DNA from: Algoriphagus resistens | GTDB taxonomy: Bacteria > Bacteroidota > Bacteroidia > Cytophagales > Cyclobacteriaceae | NCBI RefSeq assembly: GCF_001442615.1 | Contig: NZ_LMXN01000007.1 | Location: forward strand, 124,001-188,000 | Reading direction: 5' to 3' | Length of the DNA: 64,000 nucleotides | Shown: positions 7,061 through 61,786 of the stretch, piece after piece | Layout of the letters: each line of letters opens with the position of its first letter | Position numbering within the stretch: position 1 is the first letter of the stretch | Made by a program: the position numbers and the translations under genes | The notes under the pieces: generated by a model | The model's input: only the letters and a program-made list of their open reading frames with translations | Told to the model about the DNA's origin: nothing | The model's database searches: none

Positions 7061-7550
7061 AAAACGGTCAGTTTAAAGGGGATGAGAATGAATATAGATT
7101 GCAAAAATAAGGAAGAATTTCATTATTTAGATTTAATCTAATAAAGAATTGAAAAAAGTCCCTAGAGCTTCTGTGGAAAAATCTGAAGATTAAGAATAGA
7201 GAATATAGATTTCATCAGTTTATTTTTTATTTCTCTGCGGCCATATGGAATCTCGCACGATGAATAATCATCCCTCTGTGTGCCTTTTTCGACATGCTTG
7301 ATTTCATCTAATTAAAAAATAATTAAAACGTTAATTATCAAATAGTTAACTGCATGTGTTTCAAAACAGGTCTTTAAAACCATTTTTTTATCCTCATTTT
7401 CAAATAATCAATCAAATATTCAAGATTTGTATTTAATTTGAACCCAAGATTTAATAATTTAACAGTAAAACAATAATTAATAGTTAAATTTTTAACCATG
7501 TTTTTGGAATTCAACAAAAAAAATAGTCAAATTATTAAGTTAAAGACCCT
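7061..7550. other. AT-rich divergent control region between the PepSY gene and the ECF sigma gene
   Basis: 490 bp separate two divergent genes. It holds a minus-strand repeat copy (7227-7307), then a second short ATG frame (7162-7215, starting MKSI) which may be a decayed tandem unit like the pair at 14568-14753. The stretch 7311-7550 is very AT-rich and probably carries the promoter of the sigma factor gene. A near-match to the Bacteroidota TAnnTTTG box occurs around 7430-7440, but it is too weak to call. Confidence 0.5.
7227..7307 (-). repeat. MKSS/ARFH short repeat element, copy D
   Basis: A complete 26-codon frame from ATG at 7307 to TAA at 7227, encoding a peptide that begins MKSSMSKKAHRGMIIH and continues ARFHM. 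It shares most bases with the copies at 14667 and 61691 although it lies on the opposite strand. The first hairpin is kept with a wobble pair (TGTC/GGCA around GAAAAA), the second as GATGA-TTAT-TCATC. The fourth codon region reads TCA AGC instead of TCG AGC, a synonymous difference. It precedes the PepSY gene by about 170 bp on that gene's strand. The family is not one I recognise. Confidence 0.8.
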
Positions 7551-8105
7551 ATGCCTGAAAAAGTATTAAATGAGCAAGAACTTCTAGTAAGAATCAAAAA
7601 TGACGACGAGTCAGCATTTATTGAAGTCTACGACCTCTACTGGAAACGTCTGTTCAATTTCGGTTACAAAAAACTTGGCAAAAAAGAGATAGTAGAAGGC
7701 ATTGTACAAGAGGTTTTCATTGACTTTTGGACCAAAAGATCCAAACTGGAAATCCACAGCTCTCTCACCTCCTACTTATTCACTTCGGTGAATTACAGGA
7801 TCATCAATCACTACAAATCACAGAGTATACGCGACAAGTATGCGGCACATGAAAAATCCAAAGGAGAACAAAAGAATTCATCAACCGACGAAAAGATCCT
7901 CTTCAATGACCTAAAATCAAACATCAAAAAAGTAGTGCGGAAATTTCCTCCACAGCGCAAGAAAGTATATCAATTACGCTTTAGTAAAGGCTTGAGCTAT
8001 ATAGAAATTGCAGAAAACCTGGAAATCTCTGTAAGTACGGTAGAAAAGCATCTTATGCGTGCCTTGAGGGATATCCGGGTGAGCCTAAGAGAACTGACAC
8101 TTTGA
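7551..8105 (+). CDS. ECF-type RNA polymerase sigma factor
   Basis: Sigma-70 family protein of 184 residues from the Bacteroidota ECF expansion. Region 2 (about 15-85) contains DESAFIEVYDLYWKRLF and the polymerase-binding stretch around VQEVFIDFW. Region 4 (about 122-175) has the helix-turn-helix LSYIEIAENLEISVSTVEKH. A 251-bp gap separates it from the FecR-type anti-sigma factor, and the SusC/SusD pair follows. This is the usual layout of cell-surface signalling: substrate binding at the outer-membrane protein is passed through its STN domain to FecR, which releases this sigma factor to transcribe the locus. The target promoter cannot be identified here. Confidence 0.93.
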   Translation: MPEKVLNEQELLVRIKNDDESAFIEVYDLYWKRLFNFGYKKLGKKEIVEGIVQEVFIDFWTKRSKLEIHSSLTSYLFTSVNYRIINHYKSQSIRDKYAAHEKSKGEQKNSSTDEKILFNDLKSNIKKVVRKFPPQRKKVYQLRFSKGLSYIEIAENLEISVSTVEKHLMRALRDIRVSLRELTL

Positions 8106-8356
8106 CTATTTACTTATTTAGGGCCAGGCTCTCTTTTCTGAAAGCCTTTAAGGCTGCCGCCGACCTAAAGACCGTCAGACTAATTTTTTTTGCCCGGGGC
8201 AGGCAATATGATTTTAGAATTAAAAAAGAAAATCAGGTTAAAAAAGACCATTAAACATTCAAAAAACTCAGGAAAAATAAAAAAGTTGGTTTATTTTTTA
8301 TTTACAATGGAGGATATTTCTGTCTGAATTGACTTATACAGTATAACACAAAAGCA

Positions 8357-9280
8357 ATGACTCAGGGCAACTCCAATTCATTTCATGATGAAAATGTAGA
8401 ATCTCTTTTAGGATTTGAAGAAACCTTTGAAACTGGTTTTGTAGATCAAATGGATGCGCAAGACCAACACGTCTTGAAGAAAAAACTATTCGGAGAAATA
8501 AAGTCAGGGATCAGAAGACATGAGGAAAAGGCTGAAATGAAAAAGAAGCTTTGGCACACTATAAAAATAGCAGCCTCATTTCTCTTACTGATCGCTTTAA
8601 ACTTCGGGTTATGGCAAGCAATAATTCCAAGAGAACAGAGCTACCAAACAGGGGCAAATGAAACGTTACAAGTAAAATTACCTGATGGATCTACAGCTTT
8701 CCTGAACTCAAATTCCTCATTGACCTACACCTATTATTGGGCGTTGGGTTTTGACAGAAAAGTGGAATTGATAGGTGAAGCTTATTTTGACATAGCCAAG
8801 AAGGGAGACCAAAGATTCATGATCAATGAAGGCGAAGTGATGGAGGTTGAAGTATTCGGAACTGAATTCAATTTCAAAAACCAACATCCCATTCACAAAT
8901 TAACCTTAATAGAGGGTAGTGTAAAGCTCGGTTATCAAAGCGAAGAAGGCAATACAAATCGCATGGTTGTTCCTGGAGAGACCATTAAACTAAACGTAGA
9001 AAACCATCAGATAGAAACCAAAATGATGGCTGACCCAATCAAAATTTTAGCCTGGCAGGACCGAAAAATACGGATGAATAATGAAAGCCTGGAAGAAGTG
9101 CTTAGTATAGTGACAGAGCTTTATGATTTGAAATTAATAGATCAAAAAATACCACCAACCAACCAACTTATCTCCGGAAGCTTACCACTGACGGACAACC
9201 CAACTGAAGTGATCAATAACATCCAGGTGCTATTCAACACAAAAATCAACCTGGAACAGAACACAATTCGAATACGATAG
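8357..9280 (+). CDS. FecR-type anti-sigma factor
   Basis: Single-pass inner-membrane regulator of 307 residues. A cytoplasmic N-terminal part (about 1-70) should bind the sigma factor. A transmembrane helix lies at about 72-95 (IKIAASFLLLIALNFGLW). The periplasmic FecR domain (about 100-215) has the typical LPDGSTAFLNSNSSLTY and GEAYFDI motifs, and a DUF4974-like C-terminal domain covers about 235-307. It lies between its sigma factor and the STN-containing SusC-like receptor, the expected partner for signal transfer across the periplasm. Confidence 0.92.
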   Translation: MTQGNSNSFHDENVESLLGFEETFETGFVDQMDAQDQHVLKKKLFGEIKSGIRRHEEKAEMKKKLWHTIKIAASFLLLIALNFGLWQAIIPREQSYQTGANETLQVKLPDGSTAFLNSNSSLTYTYYWALGFDRKVELIGEAYFDIAKKGDQRFMINEGEVMEVEVFGTEFNFKNQHPIHKLTLIEGSVKLGYQSEEGNTNRMVVPGETIKLNVENHQIETKMMADPIKILAWQDRKIRMNNESLEEVLSIVTELYDLKLIDQKIPPTNQLISGSLPLTDNPTEVINNIQVLFNTKINLEQNTIRIR

Positions 9281-9479
9281 ATTACCGCTTGCCTTACGGC
9301 CGGATTGCAAGCAACAATAAATAATAGTAAAATTAATTCGAGCAAAAGCACTGGTGAAGACCAGCAGCTAAAATTACACTAGTGAGGTCAGTGTATCTAC
9401 CCTACACAGATCTATGAATGATTAGCAATTGACCCAAAGTAAACGCGAATTATCATTCTAACCACTAACCTGTTAATCT

Positions 9480-12400
9480 ATGCTCATCAAATTTACCCGT
9501 TATCTGTTGGTAGCCGGGGTGACTGGAGTGCTCGCACTCCCACTTTCCGCAAAAGGCCAAAATCTCACACAGCTTGCCAAAGGACCAACTACTGAGCAGA
9601 AGTTGGAAAAAAAGAACCTTGAATCCTCGCTCAAAGAGCTGGAAGATCTTTATGCCATTTCGATTGCATACCCTTCTACTTTGGTAGATTCTGAAAAAAG
9701 AATCCCTGCTGCAATCAACTCCAAACTCACTGCTGAAGAGAACCTACAGCGCATCCTAAAAGGGAGCCAAATTCAATTCAGAAAAGGCTCAGGAAGCTTC
9801 TATATGCTTGAGCAATCCGAGACTCAAGATCCTAAAACAGCTCCTGCACCCGCTAATTTCACTTATCAAACACTAACTCCAACTACCCGAAAAATAGAGA
9901 GAACTATCCAGGGGGTTGTCCTCGATGATACTCAGGTCCCCATTCCTGGTGCAAGTGTCCTAATAAAAGGGACGATGAACGGGGTGGTGACTGATATTGA
10001 TGGAAAATTCACACTTACCCTGGAAGATGACAGCGCCGATGCAACCCTGATGGTTTCCTTTATAGGATTCACAACACAGGAGATCATAGTCGGGACCACC
10101 TCCATGTTCACGATAGAATTAGCCTCATCTGATCTGGCATTGAATGAGGTGGTCGTTACTGCATTTGGGCTAGAGCGGGACAAAAAAGCACTTGGATATT
10201 CTACACAAAGCGTAGATGGAAAAGCACTTACCGAATCCCGGCCAAGTAATGTGGCAAACAGTCTCTCAGGTAGGGTGGCAGGTGTTCAGGTGACAGGAAA
10301 TTCCATGCCGGGAAGCGGTGCCCATGTAGTAATAAGAGGCTCTTCCTCAGTAGCGGGAAATAACCAGCCTCTTGTGGTAGTAGATGGAGTACCGTTAGAG
10401 CAAACTTCCAGCAGACAGTATGGAAATGGGCTATCCGAAATAAGCCCGGACAACATCAAGGAAATGACCATCCTGAAAGGTGCTACAGCTGCCGCATTGT
10501 ACGGTTCACGTGCAGCAAATGGAGTGATCATGGTTACCACCAAGAATGGCGCCGGCACCAAAGGTATAGGCATAGAATTCAACAGCAACATGACTATAGA
10601 CAACCCGCTGATAAAACCGGACTTTCAGAATACCTACGGGGGAGGCGCTGGCTATAGAACCTGGTATGTGGACGGAAGAAACGGATTTGACGCAGATGGA
10701 ATCCGCGGAACTGCCGGGGTGGATGAAAGCTGGGGAGCTCCTATGGACGGCAGCATGGTACCTCTCTGGTATTCTGCCCCGGAAAAAGTAGCCCTTTTGC
10801 CGCAACCAAACAACTGGGAGGATTTCTGGGAAACAGGACATAGTGTTTCGAATACCATTGCTCTTTCTGGAGGAAATGACCAAGGCAGCTTCAGGGTAGC
10901 TATAGGCAGATTGGATCAGACCAGTATAATGGCTGACAACGATTATTACCGGAACAACTTTAAACTAAACACCTCCTATAAGTTCGTCCCAAAGCTCCAA
11001 ATGAGTGTGAATGCGGAATATGTTAAGTCAGGCTCAGACAACAGAGGTTTCACTGGTAGCCAGGATTTCATCTGGGCTCACCGACACACAGACTACACCA
11101 AGCTTAAGAACTGGGAAGATTATTACGAAATCCAAAGACAAACTTTCAGACCGGGTGATGACTATCCCTACGCGAACTGGCAGCATGAATACTTTTCAAA
11201 TCCATTTTTCAACCAAGTGTATTTGCCCAATTCAAATGAGAAAGACCGTTTAGTAGGAAGTATTGCACTGAACTACGACATAAGTGAAAACTTCAGCATT
11301 ATGGCTCGATCAGGAACGGATTACTGGACTGACACCCGAATCAACATCACCAGTGCTGAAAGTTTCAAAAATAATGTCAAAAGATTTGGATCATACTCAG
11401 AATCAGTCCTAAACAGTCAGGAAACAAACAGCGATGTAATTCTGACTTTTGATAAGGATCTGACACAAAGACTTTCTCTGAAAGTTCAAGCCGGAGCAAA
11501 CAACAGAGTCAACAATTACAAAAGTAACGCTGTAACCGTAGGTCAGCTTACCATTGATGGATTATACAACCTAGGCAATTATGCAAGTCCTGTCACTCCT
11601 TCCAGTACGATCAGAAAACAAGTTGTAAACAGTGTTTTTGGTTCAGCGCAATTTGGCTTCAACAATTACCTTTTCCTTGATGTAACCGGGAGAAATGATT
11701 GGTCCAGTACACTTCCGACCAATCAAAACTCATTCTTTTATCCGTCTGTAGCTATGAGTGCAGTATTGACGGATATTTTCAATGTGCAATCTGGAATCCT
11801 ATCATTCGCCAAAATCAGAGGAAGTATAGCCCAAGTAGGCAACGATGCAGATCCATACCTGTTAAATCAAGTATATACTTCAGAAGGTCTTTGGGCGGGA
11901 ACTACTCCCACCTATGCAGAATCAAACGAGATAGCTAATAGAACACTAAAGCCAGAAATCACCACAGGAAAAGAAGTAGGATTGGATTTGAGGTTTTTTG
12001 AGGGACGGGCAGGAATCGACTTCACTTACTACCACCAGTCCACTGTAAACCAAATCCTGGCGGTATCTATCTCTACGGCATCAGGATATAGCAGTCAAAT
12101 TCTAAATGCAGGTGAAATCACCAACCAAGGCATTGAACTTACTGTAAATGCCACACCTATCAACACCGCATCTGGATTTAGCTGGTACACCGCATTCAAT
12201 TTTGCGAGAAACAGAAACAAGGTAGTAGAACTGGCTAAGGGTCTGGAAAACTACATTTTGGGTACCCAAAACTCGCTGACATCTGAAGCCCGGGTTGGCC
12301 AGCCTTATGGCTCGCTTTACGGAAGAAGATACCTTCGTAGTCCTGAGGGAGAGCTAGTGTATAACAACGGGCTTCCTATTCTGGAGGAAGGAACCTTTAT

Positions 12401-12956
12401 TTTAGGCAATATCCAGCCAGATTGGATAGGCGGATGGACCAACTCATTGGCATACAAAGGTCTTGAGCTAAACACCCTGATCGACATGAAAATGGGTGGA
12501 GATATTTTCGATGTAGGTACCGGCCTTGCCAGAAAAACAGGACAATATGCTGAGACGGCCATCGGACGTGAAGAAGGAGTAATAGGAAAGGGAGTAATGA
12601 ATGTAGGCACTAGTGAAGAACCTATATATGTTCCCAATGATGTAATCGCAGATGCCACTACTTTCTGGAATTCCCAAAACCCACGAACCTATCATGAAAC
12701 AGGAATTTTTGATGGGACCTATGTAAAGCTACGGGAACTATCACTGGGATACGTTTTCCCTAAAAGATTCTTAGGTAATAAGTTTATCCAGACGATGAAG
12801 CTCTCTTTGGTCGGACGAAACTTGGCTATACTTTATAAGAACCATCCTCATATGGATCCAGAAGTAGATGGAAAAGGTGGGAATGGTCAAGGGTTTTCTT
12901 ATGGAGAAATGCCCTCCACCCGGAATCTGGGATTCAATCTTAATGTGACATTCTGA
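9480..12956 (+). CDS. SusC/RagA TonB-linked outer-membrane receptor with signalling (STN) domain
   Basis: TonB-dependent outer-membrane transporter of 1158 residues. A signal peptide at 1-26 ends with LSAKGQ. An STN domain (about 50-115) can contact FecR. A carboxypeptidase-regulatory-like domain covers about 143-215 (IQGVVLDDTQVPIPGASV through VSFIGFTTQEI). The plug (about 228-360) contains SGRVAGVQV, VVIRGSSSV and PLVVVDGVPLE, and the beta-barrel ends in the aromatic C-terminus NLNVTF. It pairs with the SusD protein that follows after 115 bp containing a short repeat element. STN domains are kept only where the receptor also signals, which fits the adjacent sigma/FecR pair. The downstream aminotransferase and permease suggest an amino-acid-like or peptide cargo rather than a glycan, since no glycoside hydrolase is present; this is inference. 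Confidence 0.95.
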   Translation: MLIKFTRYLLVAGVTGVLALPLSAKGQNLTQLAKGPTTEQKLEKKNLESSLKELEDLYAISIAYPSTLVDSEKRIPAAINSKLTAEENLQRILKGSQIQFRKGSGSFYMLEQSETQDPKTAPAPANFTYQTLTPTTRKIERTIQGVVLDDTQVPIPGASVLIKGTMNGVVTDIDGKFTLTLEDDSADATLMVSFIGFTTQEIIVGTTSMFTIELASSDLALNEVVVTAFGLERDKKALGYSTQSVDGKALTESRPSNVANSLSGRVAGVQVTGNSMPGSGAHVVIRGSSSVAGNNQPLVVVDGVPLEQTSSRQYGNGLSEISPDNIKEMTILKGATAAALYGSRAANGVIMVTTKNGAGTKGIGIEFNSNMTIDNPLIKPDFQNTYGGGAGYRTWYVDGRNGFDADGIRGTAGVDESWGAPMDGSMVPLWYSAPEKVALLPQPNNWEDFWETGHSVSNTIALSGGNDQGSFRVAIGRLDQTSIMADNDYYRNNFKLNTSYKFVPKLQMSVNAEYVKSGSDNRGFTGSQDFIWAHRHTDYTKLKNWEDYYEIQRQTFRPGDDYPYANWQHEYFSNPFFNQVYLPNSNEKDRLVGSIALNYDISENFSIMARSGTDYWTDTRINITSAESFKNNVKRFGSYSESVLNSQETNSDVILTFDKDLTQRLSLKVQAGANNRVNNYKSNAVTVGQLTIDGLYNLGNYASPVTPSSTIRKQVVNSVFGSAQFGFNNYLFLDVTGRNDWSSTLPTNQNSFFYPSVAMSAVLTDIFNVQSGILSFAKIRGSIAQVGNDADPYLLNQVYTSEGLWAGTTPTYAESNEIANRTLKPEITTGKEVGLDLRFFEGRAGIDFTYYHQSTVNQILAVSISTASGYSSQILNAGEITNQGIELTVNATPINTASGFSWYTAFNFARNRNKVVELAKGLENYILGTQNSLTSEARVGQPYGSLYGRRYLRSPEGELVYNNGLPILEEGTFILGNIQPDWIGGWTNSLAYKGLELNTLIDMKMGGDIFDVGTGLARKTGQYAETAIGREEGVIGKGVMNVGTSEEPIYVPNDVIADATTFWNSQNPRTYHETGIFDGTYVKLRELSLGYVFPKRFLGNKFIQTMKLSLVGRNLAILYKNHPHMDPEVDGKGGNGQGFSYGEMPSTRNLGFNLNVTF

Positions 12957-12985
12957 TCAATCATTCTACCTACAAAGAACTCATC

Positions 12986-13075
12986 ATGAAATCGAGCATA
13001 ACGTCACTCAGACTGATAATTATCCTACGTGCGAGATTCCATGTGGCCTTTGAAAGACAAATTATTAACACATGA
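12986..13075 (+). repeat. MKSS/ARFH short repeat element, copy A, overlapping the susD start
   Basis: A 29-codon frame starting MKSSITSLRL and containing RARFHVAFERQ. Its TGA (13073-13075) overlaps the susD ATG (13072-13074) as ATGA, which would couple translation if the frame is read. The middle differs from the other copies and is two codons shorter, but a GTC-ACTCA-GAC hairpin and the palindrome GATAATTATC sit where the other copies have hairpins. The ends (ATGAAATCGAGCAT and GTGCGAGATTCCATGTGGCC) are strongly conserved. Confidence 0.78.
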
Positions 13076-14532
13076 AAAGACTATACATTTCTTCCATCGC
13101 ACTATTTCTTCTGACTTTCGGTACAATGACATCTTGTACCAAGGATTTTGAAGAAACCAACACAGATCCAAACAATCCGGTTTCCATTGCCCCATCCTTG
13201 CTTCTACCGAATGCAATTCAAGTGGTGGTAGACAGATACTGGGGACATAGCACCAGATATGAACGGCTCAACATCGATGCGGCAATGTGCTGGATCCAGC
13301 ACCTATCGCGGAATATCTACATTAATGCTGAAGGGGATAGTTATGAAATTCCTCTTACAATCTCTTCTGGCACCTGGAACAATCTTTACCGGGATGCATT
13401 GATCAATTTCGAAAAAGTAAAATCACTATCCGCTCCGGGAGAACCTTATGAAAATGCCAATTATGTAGGCATCGCTATGGTGATGCAGTCATTTGCTTAT
13501 GCATACCTAACAGATGTATTTGGCCCTATTCCCTACTCTGAGGCACTTAAGGGTACTGCAGAAGAAGCCATAAACTCGCCCAAGTACGATTCTATGGAGG
13601 AAGTGTATGCAGGGATACTAGCGGATCTGATGGAAGCAAACGACCATCTTTCCACTTCTGCCCCTGCGGTAGTCGGAGATATCATGTTTAACGGAGACAT
13701 CATGAAGTGGAAGCGTTTTGCAAATTCACTCGCACTGAGAATCGCAAATAGACAAGCGACTAAAAAACCCGCTGAGTCTAAAGCTATCATGAGCCAAATT
13801 CTCTCAGATCCTGCTAAATACCCAATTATCGAAAACAATTCCCAAACAGCTGAATTAATCCATTTCGATGTGATAGGCAGCAGAAACAAAATGTTTGATG
13901 TCTTCTCAACCCGGTCTGACTGGAACATCAGCTCTACACTAATAAACAAACTTCTTGAACTTGATGATGAACGAATCACAGTGTATGCCCAACCTCTTGA
14001 AGACGGATCCTATGCAGGACTTCCAAATGGACTGACGGATGCAGCAGCAGGCAATTACAACGCTTCCAGAATCGGGCTTAAATACTTAGACCCAACCGCC
14101 CCGAGCGTCCTGATGACTCACGCAGAGGTGGAATTCATCAAAGCCGAGGCGGCATTGGACGGTGATATAGAAGGAGATGCAGCCGAATTTCTGGAAAGCG
14201 CCATTAAGGCATCTTTCATACAGCAAGGCCTGATCATGCCAAGTGACTACATGAACCGCATAGGTGGGGTGACTAAAGAAAATATCATGACCCAAAAGTG
14301 GATAGCCCTTTTTGGACAAGGTGTAGAAGCCTGGAATGAATACCGAAGAACAGGCTATCCGGTCATGCCCGCACCTAATCCCAGCGCCGTGTTTTCCAAT
14401 GAAGGGATACTTCCTACCCGCATAGAATATCCTACTTCAGAATATTCACTAAACAAAACAAACCTGGACGAGGGAGTAAGCAAACTCGGTGGCTCAGACA
14501 ACATGAGGACTCCACTGTGGTGGGTAGAATAA
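13072..14532 (+). CDS. SusD/RagB-family outer-membrane lipoprotein
   Basis: Surface-exposed substrate-binding lipoprotein of 486 residues. The signal peptide ends in a lipobox with Cys22 (GTMTSC), followed by an acidic KDFEETNTDPNNP stretch common in SusD-like proteins and useful for surface export. TPR-like helices typical of the fold are seen around YLTDVFGPIPYSEA and KWKRFANSLALRIANR, and the end has the family pattern of a closing NMRTPLWW. It should cap the SusC-like barrel encoded just upstream. The sequence resembles the SusD-like group often paired with STN-bearing receptors. The ligand is unknown. Confidence 0.94.
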   Translation: MKRLYISSIALFLLTFGTMTSCTKDFEETNTDPNNPVSIAPSLLLPNAIQVVVDRYWGHSTRYERLNIDAAMCWIQHLSRNIYINAEGDSYEIPLTISSGTWNNLYRDALINFEKVKSLSAPGEPYENANYVGIAMVMQSFAYAYLTDVFGPIPYSEALKGTAEEAINSPKYDSMEEVYAGILADLMEANDHLSTSAPAVVGDIMFNGDIMKWKRFANSLALRIANRQATKKPAESKAIMSQILSDPAKYPIIENNSQTAELIHFDVIGSRNKMFDVFSTRSDWNISSTLINKLLELDDERITVYAQPLEDGSYAGLPNGLTDAAAGNYNASRIGLKYLDPTAPSVLMTHAEVEFIKAEAALDGDIEGDAAEFLESAIKASFIQQGLIMPSDYMNRIGGVTKENIMTQKWIALFGQGVEAWNEYRRTGYPVMPAPNPSAVFSNEGILPTRIEYPTSEYSLNKTNLDEGVSKLGGSDNMRTPLWWVE

Positions 14533-14567
14533 CTAGCCCCAATCTCTAAAATTAAACGGAAATCTAT

Positions 14568-14666
14568 ATGAAATCGACACGATTAAAATCATCATTAAAA
14601 CACAAGGCAACGGTTATTTTAATGGTCAAAGATTCCATCTGACCATCTTAAAACAATTATAAACAG
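14568..14666 (+). repeat. Decayed tandem copy of the MKSS/ARFH element (copy B')
   Basis: It begins ATGAAATCGACACGA and later has AGATTCCATCTGACC and TTAAAACAATTATAA, matching copy B base for base in long stretches. The reading frame is broken: the frame opened by the ATG ends early at TGA (14640-14642), while RFH followed by LKQL and TAA lies in another frame. It ends immediately before the ATG of copy B, so the two form a head-to-tail pair. Confidence 0.65.
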
Positions 14667-14753
14667 ATGAAATCGAGCATGTCGAAAACGACACACACTG
14701 GGATGATTATAATCCATGCGAGATTCCATATGACCCTAAAAGACAAAATATAA
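14667..14753 (+). repeat. MKSS/ARFH short repeat element, copy B
   Basis: A 28-codon frame starting MKSSMSKTTHTGMIII and continuing HARFHMTLKDKI, ending TAA at 14751-14753, four bases before the ATG of the following lipoprotein gene. It contains the perfect hairpin TGTCG-AAAA-CGACA and a second one, GGAT...ATCC around GATTATA. It is nearly identical to copy C 47 kb away (61691), so the sequence is under constraint or was recently copied. Confidence 0.8.
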
Positions 14754-14757
14754 TCAT

Positions 14758-15201
14758 ATGAAAAAGACATTCAATATATACCTAGTGCTTGCAGCCTTCT
14801 CCACAATTGCTTTCACTTCATCTTGTGTGGAAACTGAAGACTTGGCAACGCCAAACGTAGCATCTCCTGTGTTGGTCTTGCTTAACGGAACATCATTCGG
14901 TGCTGAATCCCCAGTGACTGTGGGATCCAAATTCTTGGAACTAGACAAAACAAACATCCTAGACCACACGCAAGGCATAGACTCTATCCCAGTCCCTAAC
15001 CTTAATATCGCTGTCTTTATCAATAACACTACAGAGGTAGCGAGTCTAGTGACCGACACCGAGGGAAGCGCAGACCTTGTTATTTCATGGGCTGACTTGG
15101 GTCTCTCTGAGGTGACAAGTGGCAGTCAGGTTCGATTAGAATTTACCGGCACCTACAAAGACGTATCCTTCAGGAAATATCATACAGTCCGGGTTAATTA
15201 A
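14758..15201 (+). CDS. Small putative lipoprotein of the SusCD locus, function unknown
   Basis: A 147-residue protein with a signal peptide and a lipobox around Cys23 (FTSSC). The mature part is rich in beta-branched residues and acidic, and probably forms one or two beta-sandwich repeats (TTEVASLVTDTEGSADLVIS, then VRLEFTGTYKDVSF). I do not recognise a family. Position between SusD and an exported aminotransferase suggests an accessory outer-membrane lipoprotein that helps bind or present the substrate. A tandem pair of the short repeat element fills the gap upstream. The start at 14758 is fixed by the signal peptide. Confidence 0.8.
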   Translation: MKKTFNIYLVLAAFSTIAFTSSCVETEDLATPNVASPVLVLLNGTSFGAESPVTVGSKFLELDKTNILDHTQGIDSIPVPNLNIAVFINNTTEVASLVTDTEGSADLVISWADLGLSEVTSGSQVRLEFTGTYKDVSFRKYHTVRVN

Positions 15202-15258
15202 CAAAACTCATCAATTAAACAATCCTACAAAATTTTCTATAATCTTAACACAACAGCT

Positions 15259-29506: not shown

Positions 29507-29743
29507 TAGTCAAATTTGGGTTTAGTTTTCAAAAACTCGTTCTGTGTAAGTTTAGTTTAATCTTCAAGTTAAAAAACATTCAGGAAATAGAACTTCGCAA
29601 CAAGAAATATGGTGGAGCAATTCCGCATCACCTGAAAATAACCAAACCCTAAAAGAATTATCAATAAAAAGCGAATTGCCGTTCTCCAATGAAAACTTAC
29701 ATTCTACTTTTCCCTCTCAATAATTATCTGTAGTTTTCCGCAA

Positions 29744-29860
29744 CTTTAGGGGTGTCCATACGGAAAATTGTACGGACTGAGATTATACCCTTTGAACCTG
29801 ATGCAGTTAGTACTGCCGAAGGAAAAAGCGAAGTGATACACTCGGTGTGTCTCCCCTGAA
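29744..29860 (+). promoter_or_regulatory. TPP (thiamine pyrophosphate) riboswitch upstream of the thi operon
   Basis: The THI-box core is clear: AGGGGTGTCC, GGACTGAGATTATACCC, TTGAACCTGATGCAGTTAG and ACTGCCGAAGGAAA in the conserved order. The closing stem pairs CTTT near 29744 with AAAG near 29826. After the aptamer, GATACAC...GTGTGTC forms a hairpin, and CCCCT close to 29853 can pair with AGGGG of the aptamer, which suggests alternative pairing. No U-run terminator is seen before thiS, so control is probably at translation or by the alternative helix. Confidence 0.95.
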
Positions 29861-53343: not shown

Positions 53344-53370
53344 GTTGATTTTGGAAATCGGGATATAACT

Positions 53371-53405: not shown

Positions 53406-53591
53406 AATGATAGTTTAGCCATAGAAAACAGAGAGGATTTTACAACCATCACTATGTTAAACGGCAAACTCCATATATTCTTGATTCTACCTAGTAACAT
53501 AAAAAACCTGAGTAACGTAATCAAGAATTCGCATTAACTTTTAAGATTAAAATTCCGTAATTTCATTCTCAATAAACCTAACTCCAAACCC

Positions 53592-54563: not shown

Positions 54564-54751
54564 CGATTTCAGGTTTCTGATAGTTGATTTCGGATTTTCT
54601 TGCCCAATGAAGTAATTGATGGGATATATTGGGACCGTATTGGAAATACCAAGCAATCTTCATTTCCTTAATTTCTCTTAACTGAATCGTTCTTCTCCAA
54701 AACTGGCTTCGATTTTGAATATTTATCTGCAGAACTAAACCAAACACGCAC

Positions 54752-55453
54752 ATGAAAAATTATTTAACTATTGTATTTACCTTATTATTAGCCGTTCCCG
54801 TTTTTTCTCAGGACAATATGACCGTTCCATTGATTGAAGTGGAGGGATTTAGCGAGCGGAAGATAGCTCCCGATGAAGCCAATTTTCAGATTAACTTGGA
54901 AGAAAAAGCAATGAAAGTCTCCGATGCCGTCGCAGTTTTAAACAAAAAAACGCAGAAGCTTGCAGATGCCTTGAAGAAAGCCAAAATCAAGGATTATAAA
55001 TTAATTGCTGACAATTACTCTGTAGATGTCAATCGGGTTTATAGAAGTGGAGAGTCCCGTGACTCAGGATATGTTGCACGACAAACATTACAGGTGATCA
55101 CAAATAGTAAAAATGAGGATTTGCAAAAAATCGTAGAGTCCATTCAGGGGGCAGGAGACATGAGTTTCAATTTGCATTTCCAGATTTCAGAAGCCACGCA
55201 AAAATCACTTGAGGACGAACTGCTTGCCGAAGCTTTGAAAAATGCAGAGAGCCGAGCCTTGTTGATTGCAAAGACTTTAAATATTAAATCAATCCACGTT
55301 CATAGAGTTTCTTTAGAAACACAGCCTATAGTTCGTCCCTATGCAAAAATGGAAATGATGCGTTCCAGTGCTGATGCAGCGGCAGCACCTCCAATGATAA
55401 ATCCAGACGATCAAAGTTTGGAAAAAAGAGTTTTTGTAAAGTACACCTACTAA
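54752..55453 (+). CDS. SIMPL domain (DUF541) periplasmic protein
   Basis: A 233-residue exported protein with a signal peptide (LLLAVPVFSQ, cleaved near 20). The SIMPL domain covers about 25-230: PLIEVEGFSERKIAPDEANFQI, LADALKKAKIKDYKLIADNYSV, and a closing KRVFVKYTY. DUF541 proteins form large periplasmic or outer-membrane-associated oligomers in some bacteria, with no settled function. A terminator follows directly. Confidence 0.88.
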   Translation: MKNYLTIVFTLLLAVPVFSQDNMTVPLIEVEGFSERKIAPDEANFQINLEEKAMKVSDAVAVLNKKTQKLADALKKAKIKDYKLIADNYSVDVNRVYRSGESRDSGYVARQTLQVITNSKNEDLQKIVESIQGAGDMSFNLHFQISEATQKSLEDELLAEALKNAESRALLIAKTLNIKSIHVHRVSLETQPIVRPYAKMEMMRSSADAAAAPPMINPDDQSLEKRVFVKYTY

Positions 55454-55456
55454 CTT

Positions 55457-55479
55457 AAGGCCGTGAAAACGGCCTTTTT
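55457..55479 (+). terminator. Terminator after the SIMPL gene
   Basis: AAGGCCGT pairs with ACGGCCTT around GAAA and is followed by a short T run; it starts 3 bp after the stop codon. Confidence 0.93.
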
Positions 55480-55499
55480 CCTATTTACTGAAAATCTAA

Positions 55500-56075
55500 A
55501 TGAATCCAGCTGAGAGTGTTCCTGGTAACTACAAAAAACTGTTGGAGAAATGTCTGGAAATCGGATTTACAATGCCCGCCGACTTAGGTGTAGGCTCTCT
55601 TTTGAAAACGTTGGTTGCCGGTAAACCTAATGGAAATTTCCTTGAATTAGGAACGGGAATTGGCCTTTCCCTTTCTTGGATGGTAGATGGAATGGATGAT
55701 GGCGGGACAATTACTTCCATTGACAATGATCCCAAGCTTACCGAAATAGTAAATTCTTTTTTTACACTTGATCCCCGTGTGAATATCCTTTGCCAGGATG
55801 GTGCAACCTGGCTCAAAAATAATTCGAAAAACAAATTTGATCTGATTTTTGCAGATACCTGGCCTGGCAAATACAGTGAATTAGGGGAAGTTCTAGCTTT
55901 GCTTAAAGTTGGCGGGATGTATATCATCGATGACATGGATCCTCAGCCAAATTGGCCAGAGGGTCACGCAGAAAAAGCTCTTGCATTAGTAGAAAAGCTG
56001 GAGAACCTGAAGGACTTCACCTTTACGAGGATGAACTGGTCTACGGGGATTATACTCATGACAAAAACCCGGTAA
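55500..56075 (+). CDS. Class I SAM-dependent methyltransferase (O-methyltransferase-like)
   Basis: A 191-residue cytoplasmic enzyme. The SAM-binding motif I reads FLELGTGIGLSLSWMVDGM, with the acidic residue of motif II in ITSIDNDPKL and the catalytic-region DLIFADTWPGKYSEL and MYIIDDMDPQPNWPEGH, the latter typical of the O-methyltransferase group with a metal-binding Asp pair. The substrate is unknown. The 310 bp after it contain no recognised gene. Confidence 0.86.
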   Translation: MNPAESVPGNYKKLLEKCLEIGFTMPADLGVGSLLKTLVAGKPNGNFLELGTGIGLSLSWMVDGMDDGGTITSIDNDPKLTEIVNSFFTLDPRVNILCQDGATWLKNNSKNKFDLIFADTWPGKYSELGEVLALLKVGGMYIIDDMDPQPNWPEGHAEKALALVEKLENLKDFTFTRMNWSTGIILMTKTR

Positions 56076-56385
56076 TCAATGAAGATTTTTACTTGTTTCT
56101 TCCTTATCCTCTTATAAAAATTCTGAAGGAATGTATTCCGTACTGATATGATTATTCCTAAAAGGCGTCTGGAAAATAGGATGTGTGCATTTGGTATTTT
56201 GTCAAAACCACTGTCTTCTATTGCATTTTGAGAAAACACAATTATCTCCTCATGCCACAAGAAATCTCAACGCTCTGAAAGCGTTTCACTTGGGTATTTG
56301 ATGCAAAACCATAACAAAAAGGAAATCCCAGAAAAGCTTCCAATATCCCAAAAAGTCCCTATACTTAATCCATAAAACTGAGTAT
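56076..56385. other. Intergenic region without recognised genes
   Basis: 310 bp between the methyltransferase and the phospholipase C. Only short frames are open and none has a family or good start context. Near 56267-56290 CAACGCTCTGAAAGCGTTTC forms a small hairpin. The region should carry the promoter of the phospholipase gene. Confidence 0.45.
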
Positions 56386-58914
56386 ATGAGCGATTCAAGG
56401 AGAGAATTTTTAAAGAAAGCAGCTTTGGTTACCGGCGGAGCAAGTATCTGGAGTTCCATGCCAATGGCAGTACAGCGCGCCATGGCTATCCCAGCTGCTC
56501 AGGGAACGACTTTTTATCATGCAGAGCACGTGATCATGCTGATGCAGGAAAACAGATCTTTCGATCATTGCTTCGGCACCATGAGAGGTGTACGTGGATT
56601 CAACGATCCGCGGGCAATCTCTCTTCCTGATAATAACCCGGTTTGGCTTCAGCCAGACAAAAACGGAAATCGCTTTGCCCCTTTTCGCTTTGACATCAAA
56701 GACACCAAGGCCACCTGGATGAGTGGAACGCCACATTCTTGGGAAAATCAAGTGGATGCCAGAAGCGATGGCAAGTACAATAATTGGATAGAGGCTAAAC
56801 GACCGGGAAAAGAATATTACAATCTTCCGCTGACCATGGGCTTTTATAACCGCGAGGATTTACCTTTTTACTATGCGTTGGCAGATGCTTTCACGGTGTG
56901 TGACCAGCACTTTTGTGCAGCACTCACAGGTACCACTACAAACAGAAGCTATTTCTGGACAGGCAAAACCCATGGAGCAGACGGAGAAAAACCCAAAGTC
57001 AGAAATGGAGAATTGACGTATACAAAAGAAGGGAATTGGAGAACTTTCCCAGAGCTGCTGGAGGAAAACGATATCTCCTGGAAAGTCTATCAGAATGAAA
57101 TCAGTATCACGACAGAATTGGAAGGTGAGGCTGAAGCGCTTTTGGCAAACTTCACCGACAACAACCTGGAGTGGTTTTCTCAGTTTGGGGTGCGTTTTCA
57201 TCCCGAGCATTATCTTTTTCTCCAAAAAAGACAAAAAGAACTGCCTTCCGAAATCGCGGCATTAAAAGTGACTATCGCCAGCAATCCTACCAATCTAGAG
57301 GAATTGCAAAAGGAACTGAAGGAAAAGGAAGATAGCCTGGCTTACATGGAAGTTTACTTGGAAAAATGGAATGCCGAAGAGTTCGAAAAACTCTCTGATA
57401 ATTCTAAAAACCTTCATAAAAAGGCTTTCCAAACTAATACCGGTGATCCGGATTATCACCAAACTGAAAAGCTCAGCTATCAGGAAAATGGCGAGGATCG
57501 GGAGACCCTGATTCCCAAGGGAGATATTCTTTACCAATTCCGAAAGGATGTAAAGGAAGGGACTTTGCCTACTGTCACCTGGCTGGTCGCTCCCCAGAAA
57601 TTCTCTGACCATCCCAGTGCTCCTTGGTATGGTGCATGGTATGCTTCGGAAGTGATGAATATACTGACTGAAGATCCTGAAATATGGAAGAAAACGATAT
57701 TTATCATCAATTACGATGAGAATGATGGCTATTTCGATCACATCCCCCCTTTCGTGCCACCACATCCCCAAGAACTAAATGGTAAACTATCAGATGGACT
57801 TTCCAGTGTAGGAGAATTTGTAACCGCCGAAGAGGAATTGAAAGCAGGCTTCAAACCTGAAGAGACAAGAACAAGTCCGGTAGGATTAGGATATAGAGTT
57901 CCTTTAATCATCGCCTCTCCATGGTCAAGGGGTGGATGGGTGAATTCAGAAGTCTGTGACATCACTTCTACGATACAGTTTTTGGAAAAATTTCTTTCAA
58001 AAAAGACGGGGAAAAGCATCAAAGAAACAAATATCAGCTCATGGAGAAGAACTGTAAGCGGTGATCTGACCTCAGCATTCAGACCATACAATGGTGAGAA
58101 AATCAAACATGCGAAACCTGTAAACCAGGAAAAACTTATAAAGCAGATCTACAACGCAAAATTCAAAAATATACCCACCAATTTCATAAAACTATCCGAA
58201 GCAGAAGCCAAAAGAGAAGCACAAAATCCAGGTAGCTCTTCGGTCTTTCCTAAGCAAGAAACCGGAACCAAGCCTTCTAATGGACTGAAATATGACCTGC
58301 ATGCAGATGGAAAACTCAGTCCCGATGGCAAGAAGTTTATCATCACCTTCACTTCCTCACAAGAAATTTTCGGAAAGGATGCATTGGGCTCAGGGTTCAA
58401 TGTGTATGCTCCCGGAAACTACCTTAATCCAAAAACAAAAGCTTTTGAACCGGTGAAAACCTGGGCGTTTGCAGTGAAGTCAGGTGATAGTATTTCCTAT
58501 GAATGGCCTATTGAAGAATTCGAAAATGGAATACCTCATCTACGGGTATATGGGCCAAACGGGTTCTACAGGGAATTTAAAGGCTATTCTCCTAATACTG
58601 CAATTCAAATACATGTGAAACCAATTTTTAAAAACAACAATGTAAAGGACGAGTTAGTGCTGGTAATCAAAAACACCTCCACAACTGAGCAAATCTTTTT
58701 AGTCAATGACGAGGTATATCTAAAATTAAAAGAGAGCTTTAAACTTCCTACCGGAGCAGAAAAAACCCTGCAAATGAACACTAAGAAATCCCGGGGCTGG
58801 TATGAAATCAACCTCTCTGCCAAGGAAAGTCCAGATCTAAAAATCACTTACGCCGGAAGACTGGAAACTGGTAAAGACAGCATATCAGATCCACAGATGG
58901 GAGGTGTAGTGTAG
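56386..58914 (+). CDS. Tat-exported phosphocholine-type phospholipase C
   Basis: An 842-residue secreted enzyme of the acid-phosphatase/phospholipase C superfamily. It begins with a twin-arginine signal (SDSRREFLKKAALVTGG, then an Ala-rich h-region). The catalytic domain shows HVIMLMQENRSFDHCFGTMRGVRGFND, CDQHFCAALTGTTTNRSYFWTG, IINYDENDGYFDHIPPF and LGYRVPLIIASPWSRGGWV, all typical of non-haemolytic PLC. Two C-terminal beta-domains (about 660-830, DUF756-like) complete the usual length. An internal helical insert at about 280-340 (rich in Glu/Lys) is larger than in Pseudomonas PLC. It may supply phosphate or choline from phospholipids. Confidence 0.94.
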   Translation: MSDSRREFLKKAALVTGGASIWSSMPMAVQRAMAIPAAQGTTFYHAEHVIMLMQENRSFDHCFGTMRGVRGFNDPRAISLPDNNPVWLQPDKNGNRFAPFRFDIKDTKATWMSGTPHSWENQVDARSDGKYNNWIEAKRPGKEYYNLPLTMGFYNREDLPFYYALADAFTVCDQHFCAALTGTTTNRSYFWTGKTHGADGEKPKVRNGELTYTKEGNWRTFPELLEENDISWKVYQNEISITTELEGEAEALLANFTDNNLEWFSQFGVRFHPEHYLFLQKRQKELPSEIAALKVTIASNPTNLEELQKELKEKEDSLAYMEVYLEKWNAEEFEKLSDNSKNLHKKAFQTNTGDPDYHQTEKLSYQENGEDRETLIPKGDILYQFRKDVKEGTLPTVTWLVAPQKFSDHPSAPWYGAWYASEVMNILTEDPEIWKKTIFIINYDENDGYFDHIPPFVPPHPQELNGKLSDGLSSVGEFVTAEEELKAGFKPEETRTSPVGLGYRVPLIIASPWSRGGWVNSEVCDITSTIQFLEKFLSKKTGKSIKETNISSWRRTVSGDLTSAFRPYNGEKIKHAKPVNQEKLIKQIYNAKFKNIPTNFIKLSEAEAKREAQNPGSSSVFPKQETGTKPSNGLKYDLHADGKLSPDGKKFIITFTSSQEIFGKDALGSGFNVYAPGNYLNPKTKAFEPVKTWAFAVKSGDSISYEWPIEEFENGIPHLRVYGPNGFYREFKGYSPNTAIQIHVKPIFKNNNVKDELVLVIKNTSTTEQIFLVNDEVYLKLKESFKLPTGAEKTLQMNTKKSRGWYEINLSAKESPDLKITYAGRLETGKDSISDPQMGGVV

Positions 58915-58933
58915 CTAAGTAAATTAGCTACAC
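58909..58933. terminator. Hairpin shared by two convergent genes, containing both stop codons
   Basis: GTGTAGCTAA (58909-58918) and TTAGCTACAC (58924-58933) form a perfect 10-bp stem with a five-base loop. The phospholipase stop TAG (58912-58914) and the minus-strand stop of the 39-residue protein (58924-58926) both lie inside it. There is no long T run on either side, so termination efficiency is uncertain. Confidence 0.6.
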
Positions 58934-59043
58934 TGTCCCAAAAGGAAAAAAATCAGAACGAAAACGAGGATAGTTCCTAGACATCCTCCGCCTAGTTTGT
59001 AGGCTCCGTAGCCAGCGATTAATCCTTTGAAAAGGTTGTTCAT
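58924..59043 (-). CDS. 39-residue membrane protein, unknown function
   Basis: A short gene from ATG 59043 to TAA 58924. The product starts MNNLFKGLIAGYGAYKLGGG and continues as CLGTILVFVLIFFLLGQCS: a short amphipathic N-terminal part, a Gly-rich turn and one transmembrane helix with two Cys. The composition is clearly protein-like and the frame is clean. It is convergent with the phospholipase C gene and has a strong hairpin in its 5' untranslated region. I do not know a family for it; similar tiny Gly-rich membrane proteins occur in Bacteroidota. Confidence 0.72.
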   Translation of the reverse strand: MNNLFKGLIAGYGAYKLGGGCLGTILVFVLIFFLLGQCS

Positions 59044-59393
59044 GTTTGGAAAATTTAAGTTTTAACTTATTGCTATGGCTTCAATTCACAAGTTGTGCCA
59101 TAGCAATTATCATTTTGGAAACACATTGGCAAACCCAAAAAACCGAGCTTTTAGAAAGATTATTGGATTTTTCTAAGCAACCTTTGAGTAAGAAAATCCC
59201 GATTTGAGACAAGAACGATTTCCCAATCTGGGGAAAAGTTAACGTTTATTTGATCTTGTTATGTTTATCAAATGCATTCAAAAGATAAATACTTAGGGAT
59301 TTGCTCAACGCTTATATGCCACTTCCATCACCCTATTAGGTCTTCTAGTAAGGAAATAGGGCTAATTGCATTTTTGCGGATAATCAAATCTTT
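59044..59393. other. Gap between the small membrane protein and the radical SAM gene, with one strong hairpin
   Basis: 350 bp. An 11-bp perfect stem (ATTGCTATGGC at 59069-59079 with GCCATAGCAAT at 59097-59107) lies 25 bp upstream of the small gene's ATG, in its 5' untranslated region. It lacks a U run on the minus strand close enough to be a terminator of the radical SAM gene. The remainder is AT-rich without a gene. Confidence 0.6.
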
Positions 59394-61634
59394 TTAAAAC
59401 ACCAATAACCCATGCTCTCTCAGGATTTCCCACACCTCCGATTCCAGTAATTCATCAAAATCTCCAATTGCCAATTCATAACTTTCACAGATCGGTTTGA
59501 GAGTTTGAAGGTTTTGCCCATAGCCTACCCTATGAAGCATTTCAACTACCCACTGACCTAATTCAATTGGAAGCTCCATAGCAAAGTCTTCTTTTTTGCC
59601 TGAGAAAATTAACTCACAAATCCCATCTTCCTCGAAGACCTTCAACTCAGGCTGAGCACCAATCCACAAAACTCTGTTTCTATCCTTATACTCTGGAATA
59701 GGCTCATTTCTGATTTCATTTGCGATGAAATTCTTCGCTACCGTAGTCTTTGGGACTTTGGTATCAAACCAATCCTGCAGAGGCACATCAAAGCAGACTC
59801 CATGCATGTAGTTGAAAAGTGATTTGCGCAGCCCTTCACCGAATAGCTCATGATCAGCTCCTGTAGGATCATCATGAGGCAGATCATTGTTGGCAAAAGA
59901 ACCTGCAGTAGGCATGAGATTGACTGCTCCGAAAGCTTTTGGATCTAATCCCACGGGGCTGTGCGCAGTCATTGCAAATCGATGCCAGAAACCCGATTGG
60001 ATCACTCCTGCCTGGATCAACTGCCTGACCATTTCCAGGGAATCTATTGTCTCTTGGGCCGTTTGAGTAGGAAAACCATACATCAGATAGGCATGAACCA
60101 TGATTCCTGCCTGGGTGAAATGATTCGTCACCTGGGCCACCTGGGAGACAGTCACTCCTTTTTTGATCAATTCTAAAAGCCGATCAGAAGCCACTTCCAA
60201 GCCTCCAGAAACGGCAATACACCCCGATGCACGGAAAAGTCGGCAAAGGTCTGCTGTGAAACTGCTTTCAAAGCGGATATTCGTCCACCAGACTACAGAA
60301 AGTCCACGGCGGAGAATCTCTATAGCCAAGTCCCGCATCAAAGCCGGTGGTGCCGCCTCATCCACAAAGTGAAAACCATTTTCACCCGTCTGCGAAATAA
60401 TCTCTTCGATGCGGTCACAAAGAATAGACGCGGTAATCGGCTCATATCTCCCGATGTAATCCAGAGAAATGTCACAGAAAGTGCATTTCCCCCAGTAGCA
60501 GCCATGTGCCAGTGTCATTTTATTCCAGCGGCCATCCGACCAAAGTCTGTGCATGGGGTTCGCTACTTCTATCACAGAAAGGTAATCCCGGATCAGCAGA
60601 TCACTGTAATCTGGAGTGCCCACTTCTCGCTGAGGGACATCTTTGGCAGGATTGCTATTGCAAAAAACAACCTTACCATCCACTCGAGTAAATGCTCTTT
60701 TCAATTCTGAAACAGGTATTTTTCCATCCAGATGATCTAGCAAAATCCTGATTGGGGCTTCTCCATCATCTAGGACTATAAAGTCAATGTAATCAAAAAC
60801 ACGAGGCTCCTTAAGTGAGCGCAATTCGGTATTGGGGTAGCCTCCCCCCATCCAAAGCACCAGTTCAGGATGATGCTTTTTCAGGTAATAACCGCACTTG
60901 AAAGCGCCATATAGGTTTCCGGGAAAAGGCACGGAAAAAGCCACCGAAGTAGGCTGAAACTTCTGGATTTTTTGCTCCAGCAAGGCATAGAGTAACTCAT
61001 CGATTAAACCCGATTCCTGATTAAGTGCCTCATGCATTTCATCAAAAGAATTGGCAGACATGCCCAAGCGCTCGGCGTATCGGCTAAAACCAAAGTGAGG
61101 ATCGATCTGCTCAGTGATCAAGTCCCCGATATCTTCCAGATAAAGCGTGGCGAAATACCGGGCTTTGTCCCGGATTCCCAGTGTCCCAAATGCCCACTCC
61201 AGATCATCCAATTGCTCAAAGCGGCTTGCTTCTGGCAAATAATCCCCTTCTGCAATACGGTATGCAAGTGTGGGATTTCTGTCCTGAAGAAAAGCAATCA
61301 CCGGATCAATTGTCTGCAGGTAATTTGCTTTCAATCGCACAATCCTGGCAGCATTCTCCGACAGATCAGATTCATTTATCTGGATTTCCTGGAAGATTTT
61401 GTTCAACCCCTCTTTAGAAAAAAGCTTCAAAATCACCTCAATTCCCAAATCCACCTGATTGGAAGCCACCCTGATCTGATTGAGGTATCCTTTCAGGTAA
61501 GCCGTGGCAGGATATGGCGTATTCAGCTGGGTAAACGGCGGGGTGATAAAGAGAACTTTCGAAGCCAAGATGTAGGGGAAGTGATTTGCAGGTGCAAGTT
61601 CGGAAGAATAGTTAAGTTTTAAGTGATTATCCAC
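59394..61634 (-). CDS. B12-binding domain radical SAM protein
   Basis: A 746-residue enzyme starting at a GTG. An N-terminal region (about 25-330) ends in a cobalamin-binding-like fold (VLWMGGGYPNTELRSL, FIVLDDGEAPI). The radical SAM core follows from about 370 with HGCYWGKCTFCDISLDYIG: C379, C384 and C387 are spaced CX4CX2C rather than the textbook CX3CX2C. Later segments (GFHFVDEAAPP, SGGLEVASDRLLELIKKGVT, AYLMYGFPTQTAQETIDSLEMV) match the B12-rSAM family. Substrate unknown. It stands alone, divergent from the repeat/dienelactone hydrolase region. Confidence 0.9.
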   Translation of the reverse strand: MDNHLKLNYSSELAPANHFPYILASKVLFITPPFTQLNTPYPATAYLKGYLNQIRVASNQVDLGIEVILKLFSKEGLNKIFQEIQINESDLSENAARIVRLKANYLQTIDPVIAFLQDRNPTLAYRIAEGDYLPEASRFEQLDDLEWAFGTLGIRDKARYFATLYLEDIGDLITEQIDPHFGFSRYAERLGMSANSFDEMHEALNQESGLIDELLYALLEQKIQKFQPTSVAFSVPFPGNLYGAFKCGYYLKKHHPELVLWMGGGYPNTELRSLKEPRVFDYIDFIVLDDGEAPIRILLDHLDGKIPVSELKRAFTRVDGKVVFCNSNPAKDVPQREVGTPDYSDLLIRDYLSVIEVANPMHRLWSDGRWNKMTLAHGCYWGKCTFCDISLDYIGRYEPITASILCDRIEEIISQTGENGFHFVDEAAPPALMRDLAIEILRRGLSVVWWTNIRFESSFTADLCRLFRASGCIAVSGGLEVASDRLLELIKKGVTVSQVAQVTNHFTQAGIMVHAYLMYGFPTQTAQETIDSLEMVRQLIQAGVIQSGFWHRFAMTAHSPVGLDPKAFGAVNLMPTAGSFANNDLPHDDPTGADHELFGEGLRKSLFNYMHGVCFDVPLQDWFDTKVPKTTVAKNFIANEIRNEPIPEYKDRNRVLWIGAQPELKVFEEDGICELIFSGKKEDFAMELPIELGQWVVEMLHRVGYGQNLQTLKPICESYELAIGDFDELLESEVWEILREHGLLVF

Positions 61635-61690
61635 TTATCTACGGTTAAACTAATCCAATCAAAAGATAATTTATCGTTCAATATGGTGAC

Positions 61691-61786
61691 ATGAAATCGA
61701 GCATGTCGAAAACGACACACACCGGGATGATTAATCATCATGCGAGATTCCATGTGGCCCTTAAAAGACAAATTGTAATCATATGA
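61691..61786 (+). repeat. MKSS/ARFH short repeat element, copy C
   Basis: A 31-codon frame beginning MKSSMSKTTHTGMINHH and continuing ARFHVALKRQI. Its TGA (61784-61786) overlaps the next ATG (61783-61785) as ATGA. It has the perfect hairpin TGTCG-AAAA-CGACA and the palindrome GATGATTAATCATC. It is the best-preserved copy and very close to copy B at 14667. Confidence 0.8.

Follow-up and report, generated by a model that had tools for sequence, protein, structure and literature searches.

What is the short sequence that recurs ahead of genes in a 64 kb stretch of the genome of Algoriphagus resistens (Cyclobacteriaceae, Bacteroidota), and what placed it there? The stretch (contig NZ_LMXN01000007.1, positions 124,001 to 188,000; hereafter the window, meaning all 64,000 nucleotides) carries five copies of an element that a first-pass annotation had defined by an encoded MKSS...ARFH peptide. 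The element is a structured, non-autonomous mobile repeat of ∼91 bp rather than a peptide gene. The reading that we favor, at a probability of roughly 0.7, is that this ∼91-nt repeat is targeted to ATG and guided there by an internal CAT, is moved by an enzyme acting in trans, and replaces the start codon of the gene that it enters.

Filled and Empty Insertion Sites

Mobility was evident from sites that are filled in one species and empty in its relatives, as well as from identical copies in tandem. One gene of Cyclobacterium jeungdonense (L197) has a copy inserted between ...taaattctgcc and its ATG, whereas C. roseum and C. salsum carry orthologues with a near-identical flank and no insert; the change from ...ctgcc|ATGAAA (empty) to ...ctgccATGAAATCGAG...CGT|ATGAAA (filled) is that of a clean insertion at a start codon. 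A site in A. antarcticus (L127) is likewise filled, with the corresponding site empty in A. aquimarinus and A. chordae. In these pairs, and in two paralogous transposase genes compared below (L341 and L340), the insert adjoins a short fixed target, and nothing further is duplicated. Comparison of the filled and empty sites shows that the element enters cleanly at ATG(AA), alone or in head-to-tail arrays; most targets are the start codons of genes, where it lies on the coding strand.

A further comparison was made at coaD, using CoaD as the query and 80 named loci, the closest from Algoriphagus. The A. resistens genome has the element before this gene. The covariance model placed a copy directly before coaD in Algoriphagus sp. 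MSM8 (E 3e-17) and A. aestuariicola (1e-8), with weak matches in A. chordae (0.001) and A. faecimaris (0.009), and the coaD elements of A. antarcticus and A. aquimarinus DSM 23399 were recognized by the TTCCATGTGGCC box only. In many other species the stop codon of the upstream gene lies a few bases ahead of the coaD ATG. Further subtypes directly before coaD (L126, L127, L132, L133) have other hairpins, stand at the same start codon, and share little beyond the TTCCATGTGGCC box (altered in L133) and the ATG end.

That the repeat is an old, vertically inherited leader that does not move is barely credible. The divergence of many copies (median pairwise identity 0.74 over 57 copies) would accord with such descent, but the empty sites with matching flanks, the identical tandem copies and the copies inside RAYT genes all speak against it.

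Reading Frame and Predicted Structure

The MKSS...ARFH peptide does not define the element. The unit length, divided by three, leaves remainders of 2, 1 and 0 in 23, 15 and 11 of 49 copies, respectively, and 8 of 46 leader frames stop early (before nucleotide 60). One copy each at L243 and L244 (G164) has a TAG in the hairpin loop, and several distant relatives in genomes G770 and G919 read M-K-x-x-stop (e.g. L284, L287, L289, L298; by eye); in other copies the frame stays open and terminates at, or close to, the ATG of the gene. A conserved peptide is rejected on the variable length and the stop codons. The open frame attributed to each intact copy holds for the window and not for the family. 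Since the frame is not conserved while the stems described below covary, the element is not a peptide gene.

Read as a single strand, the element would form an outer stem (AATC/GATT in Algoriphagus; AACGCCC/GGGCGTT and others elsewhere) that encloses a variable hairpin, and a right-hand stem (CATNTG/CANATG) that includes the right-end ATG. Covariation in the aligned copies supports this arrangement. Pairs of the named stems were counted directly, rather than from an RNAalifold structure, in sets of 44, 30 and 24 copies. For the hairpin and right stem in 44 copies, covariation was 0.174 compared to 0.085 after shuffling, a value reached in none of 500 shuffles (0/500). An alignment of 30 wider copies, comprising four from the genus of the window and 26 of 39 rows from 15 further genomes (L286, L292-L297, L301, L312 and L315-L318 were omitted), gave 0.221 for the outer and right stems (0.075 shuffled; 0/500), with 70% of outer-stem cells paired even though the four genus rows lie one base out of register. 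The set of 24 drops the four genus rows, which are one base off, and two G734 rows whose outer stem was known beforehand to be broken, a choice that favors the outer stem, whereas the count over 30 copies keeps them all; here covariation was 0.280 (0.088 shuffled; 0/500) and five of seven outer-stem pairs were altered on both sides. Slid controls reached at most 0.064 in the 30- and 24-copy sets and 0.074 in the 44-copy set. Thirteen rows are unpaired at the two middle positions, and twelve of these have tandem GA/GA there, as in Algoriphagus (by eye). The outer stem lay outside the search model, while the right stem was part of it.

Preference for Gene Starts

The census of start codons covered 1.247 Mb of the genome (contig C1, 400 kb of C12 and the window), with gene starts taken from a longest-open-reading-frame script without annotation and with whole elements masked from the ATGAA background. 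Within it, 67 copies had right ends, 16 of which run into another copy. Among the 51 non-tandem right ends, 30 fell at the start of an open reading frame (ORF) of at least 90 codons, 7 lay within 120 nt past such a start and 14 were at no long ORF. ATGAA sites outside elements in the same 1.247 Mb comprised 252 starts, 131 near-starts, 663 intergenic sites and 3830 sites within genes. Setting the 37 start or near-start right ends among 51 against the 383 start-or-near and 663 intergenic ATGAA sites gave an odds ratio of 4.6 (p = 4.6e-7), and strict starts only gave 5.6 (p = 5.7e-8). The near absence of copies within genes is what selection alone would yield; the excess over intergenic sites is more than selection would explain, unless many intergenic sites are also selected. 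In other genomes, at loci picked by covariance-model score, the right end opened an ORF of at least 88 codons in 15 of 20 loci (six genomes) and of at least 93 codons in 29 of 39 places (15 further genomes; ORFs leaving the fetched stretch counted).

The gene-leading placement proposed in the first-pass annotation was thus borne out by the 37 right ends at or near an ORF start on the coding strand. Copies were found neither in random orientation and position nor in this strain alone, yet 14 of the 51 end at no long ORF. Its expectation of a bias to exported or surface genes fared less well. A crude script detected a hydrophobic N-terminal stretch in 24 of the 37 hit genes (ATGAA-start genes, 134 of 283; other genes, 217 of 711), so that most of the bias is that of ATGAA starts themselves (hit genes against ATGAA-start genes, p = 0.054). 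Ten proteins downstream of or near copies were of mixed families (SusD-like, CoaD-like, dehydrogenases, glycosyltransferase, DsbA-like, AraC-type and others), and one belonged to no family.

The excess at start codons beyond the supply of ATGAA could also be expected of a cis-regulatory leader that has spread for the benefit of the host, acting through a start codon held in an RNA stem or through a leader ORF coupled translationally to the gene. The right stem does contain the start codon, and many leader frames terminate with a TGA that overlaps the ATG of the gene or with a TAA lying 7 nt upstream of that ATG. Nevertheless, we consider this alternative unlikely: the ten downstream proteins are of unrelated kinds, orthologues in many relatives do without the element, the reading frame is not conserved, more than a quarter of the non-tandem copies (14/51) stand at no long ORF, and mismatches at the variable pair of the right stem also occur outside diverged copies.

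Junction Polarity and Proposed Mechanism

Which of the two terminal ATG triplets belongs to the element was addressed with two RAYT-type transposase genes of genome G112. Both genes are broken by copies, L340 at 1217-1309 and L341 at 1827-1920 and 2258-2350. In L341 the junctions of a copy read ...AATCAGG|AAATCGAG...CCCATG|AAATGCCC, and the paralogue L340, which has no copy at that point, reads AGGAAATGCCC (within ...GATCAGGAAATGCCC...). This comparison indicates that the left triplet (AGG) came from the target and the right ATG from the element. Counted by position, ATG occupies the right triplet of 51 of 54 copies and the left triplet of 46 of 54, which points weakly to an element-owned right ATG. 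We infer that, at start-codon sites, the target contributed the left ATG and the element has the right one as its final triplet; the start codon of the hit gene would then be supplied by the element.

At the base of the outer stem, the internal CAT is complementary to either terminal ATG, left or right, but can engage only one of them at a time. By analogy with IS200/IS605 elements, in which internal guide tetranucleotides pair with junction sequences (PMC6006769), this single CAT may act as the guide that chooses both junctions, with the element moved as single-stranded DNA by a trans-acting enzyme. Insertion at a start codon would be tolerated because the element carries its own ATG and an A-rich translation start region of the Bacteroidetes type; the hit gene would still be translated, and its old start codon would now begin a short leader frame without conserved sequence. 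In Flavobacterium johnsoniae, A at −3, −6, −12 and −13 favors initiation (PMC6847099), and three of these positions (−6, −12 and −13) are A in the common end of the element, ACAAATTATAATCAT|ATG (by eye). Expression of hit genes is therefore probably mostly preserved, to judge from these bases. A broader proposal is that of a Bacteroidota-wide superfamily in which the CAT guide reads ATG itself, each start-codon insertion swaps both start codon and start region, and the enzyme is of a kind newly linked to such repeats or an RNA-level step is involved; this we put forward tentatively, as somewhat less than an even bet.

Several observations weigh against the reading of a CAT-guided element that replaces start codons. 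The polarity of the junctions rests on one insertion, the base-exact cut is ambiguous across a common AA(A), and position −3 of the common element end is C rather than A. With respect to structure, right-stem pairing was partly selected, since that stem is in the search model, and the shuffles leave the kinship of copies in place. At the variable pair of the right stem, 13 of 43 copies show a mismatch, mismatches being no commoner in diverged copies (p = 0.70), and pairs changed on both sides in the 44-copy set numbered 4 compared to 4.3 in shuffles. RNAalifold returned no consensus structure for the 44 copies, single folds showed no unusual stability in four of the five window copies, and the ATG and CAT are nearly invariant, so that covariation is silent on their pairing. 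To these are added the 14 right ends at no long ORF and the lack, among four enzyme profiles (PF01797, PF00078, PF07282, PF02371), of any that is present in every copy-rich genome tested.

Search for the Mobilizing Enzyme

The guide-like single-strand anatomy would suit a REP-like repeat that a resident Y1 transposase mobilizes, either TnpA-REP/RAYT or an orphan TnpA with the Y---Q--HH motif. Atypical structures, with no GTAG, are reported for RAYTs of subclass 2.6 in Bacteroidetes (PMC6006769). The same article gives Y---Q--HH as the motif of Y1 TnpA subclass 1.2, which generally has no typical terminal structures; this motif occurs in 31 of 33 Y1 proteins found by motif scan. Y1 (PF01797) matches were present in 52 of 59 genomes of the genus, and copy number, as counted among the matches listed, rose weakly with Y1 count (rho 0.27, p = 0.11, 36 genomes; rho 0.38, p = 0.07, 24 genomes of at least 3.8 Mb). 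Against this stand G014 and G060, copy-rich and 100% complete by listing, without a PF01797 match at E≤0.001, a cut-off below which divergent RAYTs could be missed; past Y1 activity followed by loss is possible in both. Moreover, the element occurred in only 5 of 55 Y1 loci (1.5–3 kb flanks; two genes counted twice) and in none of 15 RAYT-motif loci with the same flanks, and several Y1 genes have hairpins of other sequence alongside (by eye). On balance a Y1-driven origin of this kind appears improbable, about as much so as the regulatory leader discussed above.

The adjoining hairpins were seen by eye beside several of the Y---Q--HH TnpA genes (L206-L225, L246-L274), e.g. CGTTCCGTAGGAACG, AGCCCTGAAGGGGC and GGCTAAAGCC. 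At L256 (∼954-1360, G164), three CCCGAGT...ACTCGGG palindromes lie beside a Y1 gene and are perhaps that gene's own repeat family.

The other three profiles were run on 15 copy-rich and four copy-poor genomes, and each was rejected as the mobilizer: PF00078 is absent from copy-rich G000 and G236, PF07282 from every copy-rich genome except G000, and PF02371 from copy-rich G000, G060, G080, G164, G189 and G236. The A. resistens genome (G000) itself has 15 TnpB-type (PF07282) matches, on contigs C6, C42 and others, compared to none in the 14 other copy-rich genomes. An autonomous parent was also sought as an orphan left end and right end within 6 kb of one another, a configuration met twice in ∼2.7 Mb and attributable by eye to coincidence in both cases.

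Copy Number, Subfamilies and Distribution

A whole-genome scan with the core 12-mer (GCGAGATTCCAT, at most one mismatch) returned 93 forward and 122 reverse matches, 215 in total, compared to 1 and 7 (8 in total) for the reversed-pattern control, which rules out chance genome-wide; the 215 include at least one match (L014) that is no copy of the element. The covariance model of 44 copies found at least 150 matches in the A. resistens genome, so that the "dozens of copies" anticipated by the first-pass annotation became well over a hundred.

From left ATG to right ATG, the unit measures 92, 91 or 90 bp in 18, 14 and 7 copies, respectively (39 of 49 measured). Neighboring copies are arranged head to tail at a spacing of 90–92 bp with the junction ATG common to both, and L240 has three identical 92-bp copies in tandem. 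A second subfamily with a longer hairpin has five close copies in 1.25 Mb, a third subfamily is also present, and different subfamilies adjoin one another in arrays. Some copies (L128, L133, L168, L185, L231, L237) have an extra CCCGA...TCGGG-type hairpin between GATTC and CATNTG, which looks like a removable arm or a second repeat inserted into the element.

Matches at E≤0.001 were found in 31 of 58 sampled relatives: 30 of 36 from the genus (A. resistens included) and 1 of 22 others. Across the family, 134 of 295 genomes and 42 of 76 genera matched at E≤1e-4; the order sample gave 66 of 391 genomes, five of them outside the family, and the phylum sample 20 of 392, 13 of them outside the family; multiple copies and pairs in tandem occur in G770, G919 or G1006. 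Trained on a single genus, the model has low sensitivity for distant relatives, and lone weak matches may be chance. Per-genome copy counts are lower bounds, the highest standing at at least 71 in the 58-genome sample, at least 14 in the family and at least 10 in the order and phylum samples.

No match was obtained in plasmid and phage records (one query each) or in viral contigs (one pattern). Rfam 15 gave none above gathering score over the element in the window or at 8 other loci, and a permissive Rfam search of 501 bases yielded just four microRNA-family matches, far under gathering scores. No description of a start-codon-targeting repeat in Bacteroidota was found in the literature searched, which left out preprints and most subscription papers. 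This is a real and widespread family of small mobile repeats with the start codon as an unusual target, and as far as these searches show it is undescribed.

Comparison with Described Elements

The anatomy resembles that of an IS200/IS605-type or REP element; we claim membership in neither, since neither a Y1 enzyme nor a GTAG foot was found to define it. Like the IS200/IS605 elements (PMC6006769), it inserts directionally beside a short fixed target and may pair an internal guide with its junctions, but it lacks an internal transposase gene, and a single CAT would serve in place of distinct left and right guides. REP sequences with their TnpA-REP/RAYT partners, as PMC6006769 and PMC3733652 describe them, are similarly high-copy, non-coding, structured and dispersed; however, they span 21–65 bp with a GT[AG]G foot, whereas this element is ∼91 bp without such a foot, stands mostly at start codons and was not found flanking RAYT genes here. 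Its consensus foot is ATGAAATC or ATGAAAC/T, and GTAG or GTGG occurs in no aligned row (by eye).

Other small repeats differ more in placement. Borrelia stem-loops lie at the 3′ ends of lipoprotein genes (PMC2775950), in contrast to the gene starts occupied here. Rickettsia palindromic elements (PMC10969869), too, are small repeats that enter genes without destroying them, but they are often fused in frame within ORFs, whereas this element precedes the ORF and its frame is irrelevant. Miniature inverted-repeat transposable elements, as treated in the same article (PMC10969869), are also short, non-autonomous and mobile; here, by contrast, the termini ATGAAATC... and ...CANATG do not form an inverted repeat, that of the element being internal (by eye), and no parent transposon was found in the ∼2.7 Mb searched.

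If the favored reading is true, translation of on the order of a hundred genes in the genome would begin at a start codon, and within an initiation region, that a mobile repeat has brought in. Changes of expression by this route escape ordinary annotation, and the element would be a genomic parasite that limits its harm by aiming where a 90-base insert need not break a protein. With its many natural insertions and their empty orthologues, the element also lends itself to the study of start-site selection by Bacteroidetes ribosomes in the absence of Shine-Dalgarno sequences, and it raises the question of which enzyme moves it.

Copies within the Window

All four copies that had been called intact were found at their places in the window, with ends shifted by a few bases; the unit runs from left ATG to right ATG, so some right ends reach further than had been drawn. 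The core 12-mer occurs mismatch-free in the window only at these four type-I copies. On the minus strand, the copy at 7213..7307 has its left ATG at 7307-7305 and its right ATG at 7215-7213; its right end opens only 17 codons, and the start of the PepSY ORF, at 7060, lies ∼150 nt on. The remaining copies are on the plus strand. A copy with a shortened hairpin, at 12986..13074, ends in an ATG (13072-13074) that is the start codon of a SusD-like outer-membrane protein gene (13072..14532, plus). The copy at 14667..14760 ends at 14758-14760 in the start codon of a 147-aa lipoprotein-like ORF (14758..15201, plus; N-terminus read by eye), for which Pfam gave no match. The copy at 61691..61785 ends in an ATG (61783-61785) that opens a 63-aa ORF; a dienelactone-hydrolase-family gene (61985-62875) follows this ORF. 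The claim that each copy lies upstream of a gene on its own strand therefore stands exactly for two of the four type-I copies (12986 and 14667), which reach the ATG of a long ORF, while that at 61691 meets the 63-aa ORF and that at 7307 (minus) falls ∼150 nt short.

The fifth copy, at 14568..14669 (plus), in tandem with that at 14667, has another hairpin and the same kind of right end. It had been taken for a decayed copy (14568-14666) and is instead one of the five close copies of the second subfamily in the 1.25 Mb examined. Elsewhere in the window, a thiamine pyrophosphate (TPP) riboswitch aptamer scored above the Rfam gathering score at 29738-29841 (plus).

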